From a bacterium (GTDB taxonomy: Bacteria; KSB1; UBA2214): 5,735 nt of DNA. Shown piece by piece: positions 1-5,735 of this stretch. The stretch covers positions 1-5,735 of the forward strand of contig JAKQKF010000473.1 in the NCBI GenBank assembly GCA_029560815.1. Reading direction: 5' to 3'. Numbering within the stretch: position 1 is the first letter of the stretch; each line of letters begins with the position of its first letter. Made by a program: the position numbers and the translations under genes. The notes beneath the pieces were generated by a model. It worked only from the letters and a program-made list of their open reading frames with translations. It ran no database searches and was not told the origin of the DNA.

Positions 1-2
1 AG

Positions 3-38
3 CTGCTGCGCCCGCTTTCCAGAAGGTTCTTTGCATGA
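3..38 (+). CDS. Possible 3' end of an upstream gene (partial)
   Basis: The frame open from the window edge reads LLRPLSRRFFA and then stops at TGA 36-38, which overlaps the ATG at 35 in an ATGA arrangement. This is the usual pattern of translationally coupled genes, and the Shine-Dalgarno-like AGAAGG of the next gene would lie inside these last codons. Only eleven residues are visible, so no family can be assigned, and an open frame this short can occur by chance. If real, the radical SAM gene is not the first of its operon. Confidence 0.3.
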   Translation: MLRPLSRRFFA

Positions 39-1156
39 AGCAGATTTCCAAAATTGAAATACAGGATTTCGCTCTTTGGAAAAAGCTCGAGGCCAAACGG
101 ACGCTTTACTCTTTTGACCTGGACCTGACCGCCCGCTGCAATCTCAACTGCCGCCACTGCTACATCAATCTGCCGGCGGGGGATGAAACTGCCCGGGCAA
201 AAGAGTTATCGCTGGATGAAATCGGTCATATCGCCGATCAGGCGATCGAACTGGGCGCTCTCTGGTGCCTGATCACCGGCGGCGAGCCTCTGCTGCGGCC
301 CGATTTTGCTGAAATCTATCTGATGCTCAAGCGCAAGGGGCTGTTGATCTCGCTCTTTACCAACGCGACCCTGATCCGGCCCGAACATATTGAGCTGTTT
401 AAAAAATACCCTCCGCGTGACATCGAGGTGACTATCTACGGAGCCTCGGCCGAGACCTATGAGCGGGTCACGCGCAGGCCCGGTTCTTTCAGACAATTCG
501 TCGCCGGCCTGGACGCCCTCTTCAACGCGGGTATCCGCGTGCGCCTCAAGGCCATGGCCCTGCGCTCCAATCTGGATGACATGGAGACGATCGCAGAATT
601 CGGCCGCAGCCGTACCAAGGACTTTTACCGCTTCGATCCCCAGCTGCACCTGCGCTACGATCGCAATGCCGAGCGCAATGAAGAGATTAACTCGGAGCGG
701 CTGACCCCACAGGAGGTGGTGGCCCTGGAAAGGGCCGATACCGCCCGCTTCGGCGCACTGCAGAAGGGCTGCGACTCGCTGATCATTCCCGATCTGGCCC
801 ACCGGGGCTGCGACCACCTCTTTCACTGCGGCGCGGGCAACGGCAGCTTCACCGTCGGCTATGACGGCACTTTCCGCCTCTGCCAGTCGCTCTGGGCGCC
901 GGATACGACGGTCAATCTGCGCGAGGTCTCCCTGCGCGAGGCCTGGGAAGAGCTGGTGCCGCGGGTGAGGGATATGCGTTCCCGGGATCCACAGTTTCTG
1001 GCCAGCTGCCGCAAATGTCCGATCGTGAATCTCTGCCTCTGGTGCCCGGCGCACGCGTATCTGGAGACCGGCCGCATGGACGGGGAGACACCGTTCTTCT
1101 GTGCCGTGGCCCACGCCCGGGCTGAGGCCTTACAAAACGCTATTATTGGCGAATAA
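35..1156 (+). CDS. Radical SAM/SPASM domain protein (putative peptide-modifying enzyme)
   Basis: This is a complete 373-residue cytosolic iron-sulfur enzyme. The radical SAM cluster motif CNLNCRHC (Cys35, Cys39, Cys42) binds the [4Fe-4S] cluster that cleaves S-adenosylmethionine, and TGGEP at 81-85 is the SAM-contacting motif. The IYGASAETYERVTRRPGSF stretch (134-152) is typical of MoaA/PqqE/NirJ-like members. The C-terminal third is a SPASM domain for auxiliary clusters: Cys265-X12-Gly278-X4-Cys283, then Cys325-X2-Cys328-X5-Cys334-X2-Cys337, and Cys356. The third spacing is X2 where the consensus has X3. Further cysteines are at 78, 246 and 259. SPASM enzymes usually modify ribosomal peptides or cofactor precursors such as PQQ, mycofactocin and sactipeptides. 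No precursor peptide is evident, so the substrate is unknown. The start is supported by AGAAGG eight bases upstream and by the ATGA overlap with an upstream frame. Family assignment is secure; function is inferred. Confidence 0.95.
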   Translation: MKQISKIEIQDFALWKKLEAKRTLYSFDLDLTARCNLNCRHCYINLPAGDETARAKELSLDEIGHIADQAIELGALWCLITGGEPLLRPDFAEIYLMLKRKGLLISLFTNATLIRPEHIELFKKYPPRDIEVTIYGASAETYERVTRRPGSFRQFVAGLDALFNAGIRVRLKAMALRSNLDDMETIAEFGRSRTKDFYRFDPQLHLRYDRNAERNEEINSERLTPQEVVALERADTARFGALQKGCDSLIIPDLAHRGCDHLFHCGAGNGSFTVGYDGTFRLCQSLWAPDTTVNLREVSLREAWEELVPRVRDMRSRDPQFLASCRKCPIVNLCLWCPAHAYLETGRMDGETPFFCAVAHARAEALQNAIIGE

Positions 1157-1342
1157 TAAATTATTTACTTGCTTTTTATGCGGTTATTTTCTAATTTCAG
1201 TTATTAGGGGTAGTGTGGTGAGGTATCTCTTGACCATACGGTTATACTGTCTTTGCTCCGCATCCTTTGCCCGCCAACATGACCGTCCCATCCCCCTGGT
1301 AACACCATGTCAAAACGCTCCGGCAACCTTGTCAGGACCTCC
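1157..1342 (+). promoter_or_regulatory. AT-rich intergenic region, likely regulatory, before the envelope genes
   Basis: Composition drops sharply from GC-rich coding sequence to a strongly AT-rich stretch at about 1141-1207, then recovers. It begins with a small perfect inverted repeat, TATTATT-ggcg-AATAATA (1141-1158), that contains the stop codon of the preceding gene. A second, weaker one is CTAAT-N7-ATTAG (1191-1207). A T-rich patch at 1173-1177 lacks a strong GC stem before it, so I cannot call a classical terminator. Position and composition suggest a promoter for the downstream genes. However, no convincing -35/-10 pair is present: TTGACC (1230-1235) and TATACT (1243-1248) are only seven bases apart. 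Confidence 0.3.
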
Positions 1343-1346
1343 ATGA
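1218..1346 (+). CDS. Possible 42-residue small ORF or leader peptide
   Basis: A GTG start at 1218 lies seven bases after AGGGG (1206-1210) and opens a 42-residue frame beginning MRYLLTIRLYCLCSASFARQ. It carries cysteines at 11, 13 and 31 and has a proline-rich tail. Its TGA (1344-1346) overlaps the ATG of the following secreted protein as ATGA, a translational-coupling layout. The N-terminal half is hydrophobic with arginines, so it could be a short leader or a chance frame. Its position downstream of a SPASM enzyme raises the idea of a modified-peptide precursor, but no repeat, double-glycine site or known leader motif is visible. I recognise no family, and the call rests on ribosome-binding-site and overlap evidence only. 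Confidence 0.2.
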   Translation: MRYLLTIRLYCLCSASFARQHDRPIPLVTPCQNAPATLSGPP

Positions 1347-2599
1347 CGATCCGACGCATCCTTGTGCTGTTCTTTGTCATTTGCGCCTCGGCGCAGCCGG
1401 CCCGGCCGGATGATTTTCAGGATCTTTACGCGCGCCTGGCTTACCATGGCTTTGAGAATCTCCGTATCAGCGCTACGGCCGACAGCGGGCTGGCGATTGC
1501 CTTTGAGAACCGCGTCTATCGCCACGATCTCAAGGCCGTTGGCGAGATTCTCCGCCTGGTCAACGAGTCCGATTCGACCTGGCAGCGCGCCTATCTGCTG
1601 CCCTGCACCCGGGGCGTGCCGCGCGGCCAGATCACTGTCGATGGCGATGCCTATCGCAGTTTCGTGGCCGGAGCGATGGATGAAAAGAGCTTCGCCAAAA
1701 CCCTGGTGGTCGGAGAGGCGAGTGAGCAGCCGCGGACACCGGTCCTCGCGTGGAAAAACCGTTCTTTCCTGCGGGTCGATGCCAATATCACTGTCGGCCA
1801 CCAGATCCAGCTTGGCCAGTATGATGACCGCCTCAAACTCTATGGCGAGTTCATTCCCGGCCTGCGCAGCACGCTCTGGCACGGCACCATGATCCAGCTG
1901 GATGGATATATCCCCTTCCATGACGAGATCAGCGTCTATGATGCCGGCCCCCGCATCGGGCGCATCAGCGTCAGCCAGCTCGTGCGCTTGCCGGCAGACA
2001 TCTACGCTTCGCTTCAATTTGGGGCTTTTCCCCCGGAGCGCTGGGGCCTCTCGGCCGAGACGGCCAGGTTCTGGCTGCAGCGCCGTCTGTTGACCGGGGC
2101 GCAGCTCGATAACACCGGCTTTTTCTACCACGATGAGGGCACGTGGTTTTATTCCAATATGCATCTCTGGACCTATAAAATCTATACCCAGTATTTTCTG
2201 CCCTGGACCGACATGATGCTCGGGCTGGATTACAGCAAGTACCTGCAAGGCGACCGGGGTTGGCGCGTCACCATGCGCCGCACCTTCGCCGAAACCGATA
2301 TCGCTCTTTATTATGCCATAACCGACCAGGACAGATTCGGCGGCGTTCAGCTGATGATACCTCTGCCGACGCAGCGGCGCATGCGCCCCGGGGCGGTCCG
2401 GCTGACCTGGCCCAACCAGTATTCAACCGGATATCGGGCCACCAGCAAGGCCACGACCGACAGAAGCGAGGGCCTTATGCAGACCGGCCTCGCCGTTGAT
2501 TCCGGCCTTTCGCTGGCCGAATTGGTCAAATATCTTACACCAGCCCATGTGATCAGCAGCGTTGCGGGCTGGCGCGAGGGGGCTGAACAAGCCGATTAG
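1343..2599 (+). CDS. Secreted outer-membrane protein resembling the C-terminal half of YjbH/GfcD
   Basis: This 418-residue protein starts with a signal peptide (RR at 4-5, hydrophobic core 6-14, probable cleavage after ASA at 15-17). A short globular part follows, with GFENLRIS (36-43) and AFENRVYRHD (53-62); this resembles the middle segment of YjbH-family proteins. From about residue 138 the sequence alternates polar and aromatic/hydrophobic residues as in a beta barrel. It contains the YjbH-like landmark YSKYLQGDRGWRVTMRRTF (297-315), followed by ALYYAIT. Family members of about 700 residues take part in exopolysaccharide or capsule production at the outer membrane, but here the N-terminal half is missing. 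ATG 1343 is preferred over ATG 1307 because AGGA (1334-1337) precedes it and the signal peptide then begins cleanly; 1307 adds twelve residues and lacks a ribosome-binding site. The lipoprotein gene follows after 35 bases, so they are probably co-transcribed. Family placement is by pattern recognition. Confidence 0.8.
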   Translation: MTIRRILVLFFVICASAQPARPDDFQDLYARLAYHGFENLRISATADSGLAIAFENRVYRHDLKAVGEILRLVNESDSTWQRAYLLPCTRGVPRGQITVDGDAYRSFVAGAMDEKSFAKTLVVGEASEQPRTPVLAWKNRSFLRVDANITVGHQIQLGQYDDRLKLYGEFIPGLRSTLWHGTMIQLDGYIPFHDEISVYDAGPRIGRISVSQLVRLPADIYASLQFGAFPPERWGLSAETARFWLQRRLLTGAQLDNTGFFYHDEGTWFYSNMHLWTYKIYTQYFLPWTDMMLGLDYSKYLQGDRGWRVTMRRTFAETDIALYYAITDQDRFGGVQLMIPLPTQRRMRPGAVRLTWPNQYSTGYRATSKATTDRSEGLMQTGLAVDSGLSLAELVKYLTPAHVISSVAGWREGAEQAD

Positions 2600-2620
2600 T
2601 AAAGCAAAGATATACCATCA

Positions 2621-2626
2621 GGGAGG
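2621..2626 (+). promoter_or_regulatory. Strong Shine-Dalgarno site of the lipoprotein gene
   Basis: GGGAGG sits eight bases before the ATG at 2635, within the 35-base gap after the preceding stop. It is the strongest ribosome-binding site in the window. This fixes the lipoprotein start and suggests that the lipoprotein is translated more strongly than its two YjbH-like neighbours, whose sites are weak. Confidence 0.75.
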
Positions 2627-2634
2627 AAACAGGT

Positions 2635-4362
2635 ATGAAACGATTTAAAAAAACGGGCTGGGCGCTGGCGCTGCTGCTTATGGTGCTGGCGATCGGCTGT
2701 GAGCAGGTCTCCGATCCGCTCACGCTCTCCAGCTTTGACGTCGCCAGGAACGCCTCTTTTAACAGCGGCGCGACCATGGGGACCAACCGGTCGGTCTTTT
2801 ACCCCTATGAGACCATCTTTTTCTCCTACTCCGGTCTCTATCCCAGCGAGCAGACTGACATCCAGATCATCCGGCTCAGGGACAAGCAGATGGTCAAACG
2901 CCTGATCGTGATCACCGATGAGAACGGCGAGATCAGGAATCTGCCCATCTGGTACACCATCGGCCATGTCAGACCGGGCGTCTTCAAGGATGAAGCGGAT
3001 GAGTACGCTGTTCACCTCGAGCAGCCGGGACTCGACCGCCCCTGGAAGATCTACACCATCCCCTTTGACATCCGTAACAGTACGCCTCCGCCCCACGCCC
3101 AGGTGCTGACGGTCAATGCGGCGGGCCAGTTTGTCGCCGGGCAGTATATCACCGGAAGCGCGGTCTATGCCAAAGGCACCAAATTCGGCGCCGGCAAAAA
3201 CCTGCAGCTCCTCATCGTCCAGGATCGCAGCAGCTACGCCACCGGCGATCTCTACACGGATGTGAGCGGTGATGGCATTGAGGCCGTCACGACCAGTGGC
3301 AGCGGGGCTTTTCCCGCCACGCGCATCTGGACCAGCGCGGCCGCCGGCAGCTATGATGTGGTCGTGGATACCGAGCCTTTCGGCCAGTTCAATGCGGGCG
3401 ATGTGATCAGCGATCCCCTCATCACCGGTGTGGTCGTGCAGGGCGCCGCCCTTTCGGGCGTCGATCTGGTGCAGGATATCGCCTGCGATCAGGGCGGTCT
3501 GCACAAGAACAGCTTTGCCACCACCGAGGCGGTTTTCGCGCGCGCGGACGCCCAGACCATGCCGCAGGATACCTGGGAGAGCGAGTATATCGCCGTCTAT
3601 ATCACCCCGCACAAAGAGGTCTGGGAACATGGCGACTCTCTGGTTGCGGTGCGCACGGTCGGTACCCACGAAATGCCGATCTTCTGCCTGTGGCAGCGCA
3701 ATTCGGGCAGCCTGGCGACGATCCGCACCCGCGGCGTCACCAACGCCATTGATCCCATGCCGGTTCAGCTCTGGCCGGGCAAGTATGACGTCATCATCGA
3801 TGTGGACCGCAATACCGTCTATAACAAGGGCGTCGACATCATCGACGGCGGCAGCCAGATCGGTTTTGAAGTTACGGGTGATGTGCCCGGTTACCGCCTG
3901 GTCGCCAGCGCGGACGTTGATTTCCTCGGCTGCCGCCAGGATTGCGAAGATTACTGGGGCAATTTCAAGGGCCCGATCGATCCCAGGCGCTGCTATGACC
4001 GGGGTATCTGGGGCAGGTTCAAGGACAAACATCGCACCATGGTCTGGGGCGAGGTTGTCGATTCGACCGGTTACCTGATTCCGGGCGCCAAGATCAGCTA
4101 CACCAAGATCAGCGGTCCCGGCTGGCTGGACCGCAAATCCGCCACGACCAACGCCTCCGGCAATGCCTGCGCCGTCTTTCAGGGCTCCGGCATCGGACAA
4201 AAAACTGTCGTGCGCGTCGATGCCGATTTCGATGTGCTCCAGCCGGACGGCATCACCTGGAAACACCACCACCTCACCCACAATGTGGTGCTCTTCATCA
4301 AGGTCTGTTACTACCACAGCCAGGGCATCATCCACAACCAGGGCACGGTGGGTGGCAATTAG
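2635..4362 (+). CDS. Large modular outer-membrane lipoprotein with Ig-like C-terminal domain
   Basis: This 575-residue protein has a lipoprotein signal peptide: MKRFKK, a hydrophobic core at 9-20, then AIGC with the lipidated Cys22. Glu follows the cysteine rather than Asp, which fits transport to the outer membrane. The mature part is beta-rich with apparent internal repeats. GSYDVVVD (238-245) with NAGDVISD (253-260) parallels GKYDVIIDVDRN (382-393) with NKGVDIID (397-404); a more diverged copy lies around 95-147. A Cys-containing linker (Cys433, Cys437, Cys453) leads to a bacterial Ig-like domain at about 466-560, with VWGEVVDSTGYLIPGAKISY and TTNASGNACAVF typical of Big/invasin-type folds. 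I recognise no named family for the whole. It lies between the two YjbH-like half genes, and yjb/gfc operons also pair a lipoprotein with YjbH/GfcD, so an outer-membrane partner role is inferred. No enzymatic motif is visible. Confidence 0.85.
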   Translation: MKRFKKTGWALALLLMVLAIGCEQVSDPLTLSSFDVARNASFNSGATMGTNRSVFYPYETIFFSYSGLYPSEQTDIQIIRLRDKQMVKRLIVITDENGEIRNLPIWYTIGHVRPGVFKDEADEYAVHLEQPGLDRPWKIYTIPFDIRNSTPPPHAQVLTVNAAGQFVAGQYITGSAVYAKGTKFGAGKNLQLLIVQDRSSYATGDLYTDVSGDGIEAVTTSGSGAFPATRIWTSAAAGSYDVVVDTEPFGQFNAGDVISDPLITGVVVQGAALSGVDLVQDIACDQGGLHKNSFATTEAVFARADAQTMPQDTWESEYIAVYITPHKEVWEHGDSLVAVRTVGTHEMPIFCLWQRNSGSLATIRTRGVTNAIDPMPVQLWPGKYDVIIDVDRNTVYNKGVDIIDGGSQIGFEVTGDVPGYRLVASADVDFLGCRQDCEDYWGNFKGPIDPRRCYDRGIWGRFKDKHRTMVWGEVVDSTGYLIPGAKISYTKISGPGWLDRKSATTNASGNACAVFQGSGIGQKTVVRVDADFDVLQPDGITWKHHHLTHNVVLFIKVCYYHSQGIIHNQGTVGGN

Positions 4363-5197
4363 GCAGTATGCACTTCCTGCTCCCGGTACCCCTGTGCCGG
4401 GAGCAGGGATCAATCGGGGGATTGCAGCAGCGGCCGCGCGCCGGCTGTATGGTATAGTCAAACGCATTTCATGTATCCTCCCCGCTTTGGCGCCCGGGCT
4501 TGGCCTGGGCGCCATTTTATTTATCCTGCTCTCGCCCATGCCTGTTTCGTCCCAGAACGCCTCCCTCTTTGGCTATACTGGATTGATGCTGGTGCCTTCC
4601 GCGGAGATCGCGGACGACGGCGAGATTACAGGTGGAGTGAGCCGCATACCTATGCTCTATTCCAATTGGTGGCCCAACCGGCGTACGGTTTTCTGGGGGA
4701 GGATCGGCTTTCTTCCCTTTCTCGAGGCCGGCGGCATGTTCGTGCGGCCTGACCACTATGGAGGCGGCTTTGGCGACCGCTCGGTCTATATCAAGGTGCA
4801 GCTGCTGAAAGAGAAAGGCCGGCGGCCGGCCTTGGCCATCGGCACGCAGGACTTTTTCGCCATCAAACAGCTCAAGTGGGAGACCGCCACCGCCCAGCAT
4901 TTCGGCGCCCTCTATCTGGTCGCCTCCAGACACGATACTCTCCGGGGCGTGCCGCTGCACTTTCATCTCGGCTATGGCCCGGACTGGCTGGTCGCAAGGA
5001 CGAAAATGCTGGTCGGCCTCTTCGGCGGTGTGACGTATTCGCCGCACCGTTACGTCACGCTTCTGGCTGAGTATGACGCTGTGTGCTTCAACGCCGGCCT
5101 GCGCCTGCAGCCCACCCCTTTTCTCCAGGCCCACATCGGCTGGTGGAAGCTGCGCGAGCTGACCGCCAATCTCGCCCTCACTGTACATCTGCAGTGA
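4352..5197 (+). CDS. Secreted outer-membrane protein resembling the N-terminal half of YjbH/GfcD (start uncertain)
   Basis: The secure part starts with a signal-like segment: VKRISC at 4457-4474, a hydrophobic run to about 4540, and probable cleavage near VSSQ. The mature N-terminus LFGYTGLMLVPSAEIADDG is the hallmark opening of YjbH-type proteins (G-x-x-GL-x-x-P-[ST]-A). Barrel-like strands follow, including DRSVYIKVQLL, PALAIGTQDF, GALYLVASR, HLGYGPDW, TLLAEYD and a final ANLALTVHL. At about 240 mature residues it covers only the N-terminal half of the family. The start is unresolved. GTG 4352 has AGGG (4340-4343) eight bases upstream and overlaps the lipoprotein end by eleven bases, but it leaves a long leader before the signal. 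GTG 4394 lies in a hairpin, TTG 4487 loses the positive charges, and ATG 4538 loses the signal altogether. Its C-terminal counterpart is encoded upstream of the lipoprotein, so the two products probably work together at the outer membrane. Confidence 0.75.
   Translation: MAIRQYALPAPGTPVPGAGINRGIAAAAARRLYGIVKRISCILPALAPGLGLGAILFILLSPMPVSSQNASLFGYTGLMLVPSAEIADDGEITGGVSRIPMLYSNWWPNRRTVFWGRIGFLPFLEAGGMFVRPDHYGGGFGDRSVYIKVQLLKEKGRRPALAIGTQDFFAIKQLKWETATAQHFGALYLVASRHDTLRGVPLHFHLGYGPDWLVARTKMLVGLFGGVTYSPHRYVTLLAEYDAVCFNAGLRLQPTPFLQAHIGWWKLRELTANLALTVHLQ
4374..4409 (+). other. Long stem-loop after the lipoprotein gene
   Basis: Bases 4374-4389 pair with 4394-4409 around a four-base loop CCCT (4390-4393). 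This gives a 16-bp stem with only two G-T (G-U in RNA) wobbles (4375/4408, 4387/4396). The inner arms are TGCTCCCGGTAC and GTGCCGGGAGCA. It begins twelve bases after the lipoprotein stop codon. No T-run follows, so it is not a standard intrinsic terminator. It could be a terminator lacking a U-tract, an mRNA-end stabiliser that sets lipoprotein dosage, or a block on translation of the next gene, whose GTG candidate at 4394 lies inside it. Confidence 0.6.
4448..4458 (+). promoter_or_regulatory. Weak extended -10-like element
   Basis: TGG followed by TATAGT (4453-4458) resembles an extended -10 promoter element and lies just past the hairpin. No -35 hexamer is found at normal spacing. A transcript from here would start inside or after the charged part of the signal peptide of the YjbH N-half protein, which makes a functional promoter doubtful. 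It is recorded because the start of that gene is unresolved. Confidence 0.15.
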
Positions 5198-5207
5198 TCC
5201 CGCGTCC

Positions 5208-5227
5208 GCCGGGAATTTTCTCCCGGC
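5208..5227 (+). terminator. Short stem-loop after the YjbH N-half gene, possible terminator
   Basis: GCCGGGA (5208-5214) and TCCCGGC (5221-5227) form a perfect 7-bp stem around the loop ATTTTC, ten bases after the stop codon at 5195-5197. The T residues sit in the loop rather than after the stem, so it would be atypical as an intrinsic terminator. Its position between two genes and its GC-rich stem still fit an end-of-transcript element. It shares the CCGGGA core with the longer hairpin at 4374-4409. Confidence 0.4.
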
Positions 5228-5244
5228 CATCCCCGTTGTCCGGT

Positions 5245-5250
5245 TATAAT
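5245..5250 (+). promoter_or_regulatory. TATAAT -10-like box upstream of the ABC transporter gene
   Basis: A perfect TATAAT hexamer lies 33 bases before the ATG at 5283 and just downstream of the hairpin, a sensible place for a new promoter. No TTGACA-like -35 hexamer is found at 16-19 bases upstream, so this is only a candidate. If active, the ABC transporter gene is transcribed separately from the YjbH/lipoprotein genes. Confidence 0.3.
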
Positions 5251-5282
5251 CCCGTCCCCCTCACTATTCAAGGCCGAGAATC

Positions 5283-5735
5283 ATGACTCCAAGCCGCTTG
5301 CGGCCCCTGCGCAAACTGAACCGCCGGCAGTTCCGTGAAGAATTGCTGCCCAACATCCTCCGCTCGCTCGAGATGGTCTGGCGCGCCTCGCCCTTTCTTT
5401 TCATCATCAGCATTCTGCTGCTGGTGCTGCAGAGCGTTCTGCCCCTGGGTATTTTGTATGCCAGCAAGCTGATTCTCGACGGTGTTGCCGCCGCGCTGCA
5501 GCAGGGCGCGCTTGCTTCCACGCCCCGTTCGCTTATTCTGATCGCCTCCCTGGTGGGGGGACTCGTCTTCCTGCAGGTGGTCGCCTCCACCATTCACTCC
5601 TGGCTGCAGAGCCACCAGTCCGCTATGGTGCAGGAGAATATCATGGAAAAACTCCACCGTAAATCGGTGGAGATCGATTTCGCCTACTATGAGAACCCCG
5701 AATTTTTCAACACCCTCCATCGGGCTCAGCACCAG
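5283..5735 (+). CDS. ABC transporter with fused permease domain, N-terminal part (truncated by window end)
   Basis: An open frame from ATG 5283 runs 151 codons to the window edge with no stop. AAGG (5269-5273 region) precedes the ATG. A basic cytoplasmic N-terminus is followed by two predicted membrane helices at about 35-60 and 82-105. Next comes the long cytoplasmic extension MEKLHRKSVEIDFAYYENPE (121-140), then FFNTLHRAQ. That last pattern, basic then E-[IL]-D with an aromatic-YEN/D-P-EF-N-x-L-x-RA run, is characteristic of exporter-type ABC half transporters with fused membrane and ATP-binding domains (MsbA/MdlB-like). The ATPase motifs would lie beyond the window, so ATP binding is inferred. 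There is no N-terminal C39 peptidase domain, so it is not a double-glycine leader-processing exporter. Substrate is unknown: lipid, peptide and glycan precursor are all possible. Confidence 0.85.
   Translation, partial: MTPSRLRPLRKLNRRQFREELLPNILRSLEMVWRASPFLFIISILLLVLQSVLPLGILYASKLILDGVAAALQQGALASTPRSLILIASLVGGLVFLQVVASTIHSWLQSHQSAMVQENIMEKLHRKSVEIDFAYYENPEFFNTLHRAQHQ

Follow-up and report, generated by a model that had tools for sequence, protein, structure and literature searches.

We describe three adjoining genes in a 5,735-nucleotide stretch of DNA from a KSB1 bacterium (assembly GCA_029560815.1, contig JAKQKF010000473.1, positions 1 to 5,735; hereafter the window, meaning the whole stretch) that probably encode a two-chain version of the YjbH/GfcD-type double-barrel outer-membrane polysaccharide exporter together with a dedicated lipoprotein bearing a conserved C-terminal tail. 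The two barrel chains map to different domains of the family, the two-gene state and the three-gene set are conserved in other genomes, the partner lipoproteins share the tail and co-occur with YjbH genes, and polysaccharide genes neighbor related loci. The features of the set are as follows.

1343 to 2599, plus strand: YjbH C-type subunit with a signal segment, an alpha/beta middle domain, a barrel of about 13 strands and C-terminal helices (PF06082 and AlphaFold2 model)
2635 to 4362, plus strand: partner lipoprotein of 575 residues with an Ig-like domain (codon of Cys22 at 2698 to 2700)
4315 to 4359, plus strand: C-terminal tail of the lipoprotein, HSQGIIHNQGTVGGN (HNQG core at 4333 to 4344)
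4352 to 5197, plus strand: YjbH N-type subunit with a signal segment and a 12-strand barrel (likely GTG start at 4352)

The original prediction had read the product of 1343 to 2599 as the C half of a YjbH protein and the product ending at 5197 as its N half, each with its own signal-like segment and with the lipoprotein gene between them, and all of this was borne out. On scanning whole proteins and pieces against PF06082 (profile length 658, curated cut-off 24 bits), the C half covered profile positions 270 to 415 and 474 to 619 (E value 8e-10, 38.6 bits, over the cut-off) and the N half covered positions 3 to 132 and 171 to 193 (E value 2.8e-15, 56.6 bits, over the cut-off), with zero overlap between the two regions. 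In this comparison, which the prediction had set beforehand as its check, both chains align to YjbH and do so in different parts of it. A duplication rather than a split is ruled out because the halves map to different profile regions and show no resemblance to each other (profile comparison probability 0.5). Profile comparison with a two-row alignment of E. coli YjbH and GfcD placed the N half at about residues 24 to 273 with a probability of 99.1. A near relative (P0019) has the same N-terminus, and the N-half gene therefore probably starts at the GTG codon at 4352, sharing 11 bases with the end of the lipoprotein gene.

The folds of both chains agree with the domain limits of GfcD in the available text of PMC11494523, which places the N barrel at 19 to 278 and the middle domain at 279 to 423. 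The AlphaFold2 model of the C half (mean pLDDT 80.2, pTM 0.79) shows alpha/beta elements in residues 26 to 124 and long strands from 144, forming a barrel of about 13 strands by DSSP, and the N half folds as a FapF-like barrel of 12 strands. A sequence search of the PDB with the two barrel alignments found no convincing relative (best E values 0.13 and 0.76). From the mapping to PF06082 and the E. coli proteins, the gene boundary therefore falls between the GfcD N barrel and the middle domain; N barrel, middle domain and C barrel are all present across the two chains (profile parts 3 to 193 and 270 to 619), with the two barrels on two genes rather than in one polypeptide. E. coli YjbH and GfcD (PF06082) likewise combine a FapF-like 12-strand barrel, an alpha/beta middle domain and a barrel of about 13 strands with a C-terminal segment, but they do so in one chain, whereas the window set has two chains, places the C-type gene ahead of the N-type one and pairs them with another lipoprotein. 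The window set is a variant of the YjbH/GfcD family and not a standard member, because the sequence and domain features are present and the single-chain feature is not.

Relatives of all three proteins were found by protein searches (17 for the C half, and 30, one of them the window's own, and 16 for the other two), and a genome scan gave 13 loci, six of these in KSB1. The set was then followed in the 82 genomes of the KSB1 phylum, to which G001 belongs, and in the 241 genomes of the order of G011, referred to here as the Cytophagales-type order (G numbers denote genomes and L numbers loci). PF06082 matches were present in 23 of the 82 KSB1 genomes, 22 of them over the cut-off, and the frames listed for these 23 genomes included no single frame carrying both YjbH halves. 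The commonest KSB1 order is that of the window, C-type gene, lipoprotein, N-type gene, at 11 loci spread over 10 genomes (G001 with two of them, G003, G006, G007, G008, G040, G041, G045, G053 and G058), with contig-cut versions in G002 and G004. Other KSB1 genomes carry C, N, lipoprotein (G004, G047) or N, C, lipoprotein (G078, G079), or C and N with no tail lipoprotein in view (G068, G070, G010, where the contig starts inside C, and G046, where it ends inside N). The genes are dispersed or broken in G005, G055 and G064, and G071 shows a weak N-only match.

PF06082 matches were fewer in the Cytophagales-type order (15 of the 241 genomes; 2 of 149 in the class of G011). The usual layout there is lipoprotein, N, C (11 loci in 10 genomes), with a lipoprotein followed by a fused chain in G465, G424 and G413, a weak PF06082 fragment in G353, and the window's own order in G011. 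The survey that the prediction had proposed thus recovered the same three-gene order elsewhere, and its argument that this order cannot come from one frameshift holds: a single frameshift or an assembly error is ruled out, as the identical order recurs in other genomes. Its further premise that the family always consists of single chains of about 700 residues fails on the two-gene sets of both groups. What it called a reversed order does place the C-type gene first but is one of five seen overall (C-lipoprotein-N, C-N, C-N-lipoprotein, N-C-lipoprotein and lipoprotein-N-C), and the idea of a lipoprotein-linked two-subunit version stands as to the two products, the lipoprotein and an often polysaccharide-exporting setting but not as a split from a single-chain rule. 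Since relatives of all three proteins were found and the order recurs elsewhere, the window set is a recurring arrangement, beyond chance. In seven Cytophagales-type loci that were checked, a conserved secreted protein of about 240 to 260 residues (SVGASYWKPSLDYWN), perhaps another outer-membrane barrel, has its gene between that of the tail lipoprotein and that of N or the fused chain (L149 1773 to 2549; also L150, L151, L155, L156, L158 and L159).

N-only barrels are frequent in one phylum (L104 to L127), and in another group an N-only gene (L161, 8470 to 9231) adjoins Wzz/kinase and Wza-like genes. The N and C chains might accordingly be independent porins that share an operon without ever joining in a complex, and stand-alone N-type genes speak for this: PF06082 matches occur in 38 of the 84 genomes from the phylum of G009, and among the matches listed all are N-type except in G009. 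The presence of one N-only gene in a polysaccharide cluster (L161) and the 5.6 kb separating N from C in G005 point the same way. However, a single chain unites N and C in E. coli and in three Cytophagales-type genomes, and most other loci with both genes have them side by side or separated by one gene, so that we regard independent porins as distinctly unlikely.

The same fused chains bear on the suggestion that a fused YjbH broke late and was then rearranged to give the two-gene state, without functional weight. Such a break would be allowed by the well-known fused chains of the E. coli type and by a family tree whose root is uncertain. Against it stand the separate signal-like segments, the several stable gene orders, the lack of any fused frame among those listed for the 23 KSB1 genomes, and the nesting of fused chains in a two-gene clade, and we consider it quite improbable. 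Quick IQ-TREE trees (Shimodaira-Hasegawa-like approximate likelihood-ratio support only, E. coli outgroup; 44 rows for C and 37 for N) scatter the three Cytophagales-type fused chains within the lipoprotein-N-C clade and need three changes between the fused and two-gene states on the C tree and four on the N tree. Because the fused chains nest inside the two-gene clade, repeated fusion appears likelier than a split within this order; both trees had long branches flagged and an unsure root, and therefore do not support an ancestral state for the whole family. A 692-residue protein from Poribacteria (L009/L144), considered as a further fused YjbH, was rejected, as it is a LysM plus C-type protein; it was left out of the fused examples and the N tree and kept, relabeled, in the C tree. 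In L144 (2844 to 4922), the C-type part is fused to LysM-like domains, read by eye, in place of the N barrel.

The third member of the set is a lipoprotein whose sequence marks Cys22 as the likely lipidation site; this cysteine is invariant in all 15 aligned rows. Big_1 matches at E values of 0.1 or below were present in 13 of the 15 rows (best 9.3e-9), and the lipoprotein profile matched intimin in the PDB with an E value of 5e-11, an Ig-like resemblance. In homology searches alone (E value of 1e-10 or below), a test independent of any tail-based or profile-row selection, the window lipoprotein family was present in 11 of the 82 KSB1 genomes, comprising 11 of the 23 YjbH-positive genomes and none of the 59 negative ones. 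Two of these genomes, G005 and G055, carry it on a contig other than that of the YjbH genes, and there too it ends in THNQG.

The tail marks these lipoproteins across dissimilar bodies. Among 4482 closed frames of at least 80 residues in the YjbH loci, a redundant set, 75 have H[NDS]QG in their last 30 residues, and all 75, as far as they were matched by hand, are proteins or pieces of proteins adjoining a YjbH gene. E. coli aside, 32 of the 45 C-type or fused genes, a count that includes near-copies, have an open reading frame (ORF) with such a tail within 3.5 kb. Among gene-like ORFs, the H[ND]QG form ends 28 of the 176 that lie no more than 2.5 kb from a C-type gene, compared to 1 of 300 elsewhere, the single exception (L084) adjoining an N-type gene; this ORF set omitted the tail-bearing lipoproteins of the window, L142 and L146, where longer antisense frames had been chosen. 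With their ends removed, 33 tail lipoproteins, mostly chosen by the tail, form seven groups between which BLASTP finds no similarity at an E value of 1e-3, though remote homology may link them. All 12 rows of the Cytophagales-type lipoprotein family keep CHNQG unchanged. Searches of partner lipoproteins outside the window family with Pfam (nine proteins) and NCBIfam (seven of them) gave nothing over the cut-off except CarboxypepD_reg and ZU5 in L008.

All four tail codons vary synonymously over 31 tails. An origin of the tail as a by-product of the Shine-Dalgarno site of the next gene is unlikely, because of this variation and because the tail also ends lipoproteins that stand last in their sets (L136, L137, L134 and L135). 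In G053 the lipoprotein is spread over two overlapping frames (L128, 8832 to 10651), a possible frameshift or sequencing error. Dissimilar partners also have a loose motif after the lipidated cysteine, roughly C-x(3-6)-[DNE]-x-L-x-P, as in CEMKYIEPLKP and CRNEDAEPLKP, with CEQVSDPLT in the window (2698 onward).

The constant tail on widely varying bodies could also mean that the lipoprotein is cargo, namely a surface lipoprotein, perhaps carrying polymer. The YjbH barrels would then read H-N-Q-G as an address, and the acyl chains would exit by a lateral gate. The residues after the lipidated cysteine of Cytophagales-type partners (CKKDD, CKTKD, CRNKD) resemble the C-X-K-(D/E)2 export signal of PMC5080379; by eye, the match is exact in L153 (CKKDD) and near in the other Cytophagales-type partners, with CEQVSD in the window. 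The available text of PMC11494523 models a lateral gate in the GfcD C barrel for lipid-anchored molecules, and that of PMC8592465 raises the possibility that E. coli GfcD exports GfcA in a glycosylated form. On the other hand, there is about one such lipoprotein per YjbH set, whereas a sorting signal of general use should mark several proteins. The pattern CHNQGxG gave 18 matches in 15 of the 241 Cytophagales-type genomes and its reverse gave none; 12 of the 18 are YjbH partners, and the other six lie in frames of 56 and 85 residues (two) or in no frame of at least 30 residues (four). A role as cargo is, on balance, unlikely.

The setting of the related loci is consistent with polysaccharide export. 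Eighteen polysaccharide-gene queries were run on the loci, 15 from E. coli and three from L003, L005 and L008, the latter being by Pfam of Wzz/kinase, sugar transferase and CapD type. At least one match was present at 12 of the 15 Cytophagales-type loci that carry a fused chain or both N and C (the misses being L155, L157 and L162) and at 12 of the 24 KSB1 loci, with L142, L143 and L008 counted partly through their own queries and the WcaD polymerase outside the query set. At seven of the 15 Cytophagales-type loci, the lipoprotein and the N and C (or fused) genes are followed downstream by OPX and BY-kinase genes. Four N-only 18-kb control loci (L163 to L166) had no match, and the N-only locus L161 had five. 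Of the three relatives nearest to the window on the C tree, two (L146 and L142) have a Wzz/kinase gene adjoining the C-type gene. The flippase query WzxC matched only L145.

Several results weigh against the exporter reading. The C half aligned only weakly to the E. coli YjbH/GfcD alignment (about 314 to 654, collinear; probability 20.6, E value 0.001), and the 5.7-kb window itself holds no OPX, BY-kinase, initiating sugar transferase or sugar-nucleotide gene. OPX presence was dropped as a marker because it is found in 80 of the 82 KSB1 genomes and does not discriminate. The tail is absent from both E. coli operons, yjb and gfc (0 of 2), where YjbE/F and GfcA/B end without it, and no tail ORF adjoins 13 of the 45 C-type or fused genes. 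Among these 13, G045 (HYQG) and G012 (CHDSGG) have variant tails, contig or locus ends cut G002, G010 (both C genes), G046, G047 (second C gene) and G064, and the lipoprotein is present but unlinked in G005 and G055; G068, G070 and the LysM-fused gene of G009 have no tail ORF in full view. A partial tail pattern gave 10 matches in G010, G064, G068 and G070, none ending a gene-like frame. The Cytophagales-type lipoprotein family (E value of 1e-15 or below) is present in 13 of 15 YjbH-positive genomes and 0 of 226 others, of which only the latter figure is informative, because the 12 rows of its profile come from 11 of the 13 positive genomes and all 13 were known beforehand from their loci. The two positive exceptions are G011, with its own lipoprotein type, and G353, with the fragment; two weak matches of this family (E values near 1e-4) span 50 to 65 residues. 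The Fisher values obtained (1e-19, 1e-7 and 6e-13) are overstated, because the genomes are related and the positives were partly known.

In the available text of PMC8592465, GfcB and GfcC bind GfcD, and the group 4 capsule complex GfcB-GfcC-GfcD resembles the window in that a lipoprotein gene adjoins the double barrel. Unlike GfcB, the window partner has an Ig-like domain and the H-N-Q-G tail and no YjbF-family match. GfcB/YjbF (PF11102) was found in 0 of 82 KSB1 genomes and GfcC (PF06251) in 0 of the 22 KSB1 genomes searched. Both searches, which had positive E. coli controls, covered neither the genome of the window nor genomes of the Cytophagales-type order. Because the E. coli partners were not found in the phylum and GfcB and GfcC bind GfcD, we propose the tail lipoprotein as their stand-in. 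Separate C barrels are not wholly new, because a table in PMC9603273 already lists a few stand-alone C-terminal YjbH/GfcD-type barrels near OPX genes (two through GfcD and three through YjbH, from query sets that may overlap). These barrels, grouped here with Wzp/PgaA-type porins, resemble the window in having the C-type barrel as its own protein near export genes; neither a tail lipoprotein nor an N barrel with a gene of its own is described in the available text of that paper. Apart from those C barrels, a search of the open-licence literature met no two-gene YjbH sets, tail lipoprotein or tail strings.

We infer that the three proteins act in one complex, and the docking site of the tail and the transported substrate are inferred with it. 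In such a complex, the N subunit would provide the FapF-like 12-strand barrel of the export unit, and the C subunit would provide the periplasmic middle domain and the barrel of about 13 strands that bears the lateral gate, where a 14th strand is missing, in the published GfcD model. The dedicated lipoprotein would join the N and C chains in place of GfcB and GfcC, with its H-[N/D]-Q-G tail docking on the C subunit, at the middle domain or the barrel mouth, and the docked tail may gate or plug the pore during passage of a polymer that is possibly lipid-anchored. In LptD-LptE, a lipoprotein is inserted in a lateral-gate barrel, an analogy to the window set in manner of working only. Multi-barrel proteins are reportedly treated by Solan et al. 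2021.

The window has two further genes, and all five are on the plus strand.

35 to 1156, plus strand: radical SAM/SPASM protein gene, outside the core set (PF04055, E value 1.6e-26; SPASM, 5.3e-5)
5283 to 5735, plus strand: membrane domain of an ATP-binding cassette (ABC) exporter, the gene being cut by the window end (PF00664, E value 1.3e-4, under Pfam's own cut-off)

The ABC exporter matches the ABC transporter adjoining the YjbH set in L003/L142 with an E value of 6e-59. Radical SAM/SPASM genes recur near the set (window 35 to 1156, L146 7247 to 8374, L143 1991 to 3151 and L128 16063 to 17202), and L146 and L128 hold further radical SAM genes resembling a peptide-modification cluster, one of those in L128 having a weak HPr-kinase-like match. 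The H-N-Q-G tail might then be the substrate of this enzyme, as a modified peptide tail, and close homologs (E value of 1e-100 or below) do lie near the set in L146, L143 and L128 among 42 other loci scanned. However, radical SAM matches occur in 0 of 15 Cytophagales-type loci (L147 to L160 and L162) and 5 of 24 KSB1 loci, whereas the tail stands beside YjbH in all 15 of the former and most of the latter, which makes this account highly improbable. A scan for promoter-like sites (2 compared to 1.4 expected) and terminator-like sites (6 compared to 3.5 expected) was uninformative. At 4488 to 4514, within the part of the N gene coding for the signal segment, a GC-rich hairpin of 12 pairs is followed by a T-rich run, resembling a terminator or attenuator.

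For the exporter reading, the analysis points to the tail lipoprotein as an overlooked third part of the export machine. More tentatively, and with somewhat less than an even chance, H-[N/D]-Q-G may be a new address code that recruits dissimilar lipoproteins to the YjbH double barrel, either as a pore gate or as lipidated, possibly polymer-bearing cargo for the lateral opening. If so, the fused E. coli protein with GfcB and GfcC would be one derived version of a broader machine of two barrels and a lipoprotein. The sets also bear on the origin of double-barrel proteins by fusion of neighboring genes. In natural two-chain sets, the barrels are separately removable, so that which barrel moves the polymer becomes a question that can be asked, and the conserved tail names a third component and a target of seven residues.

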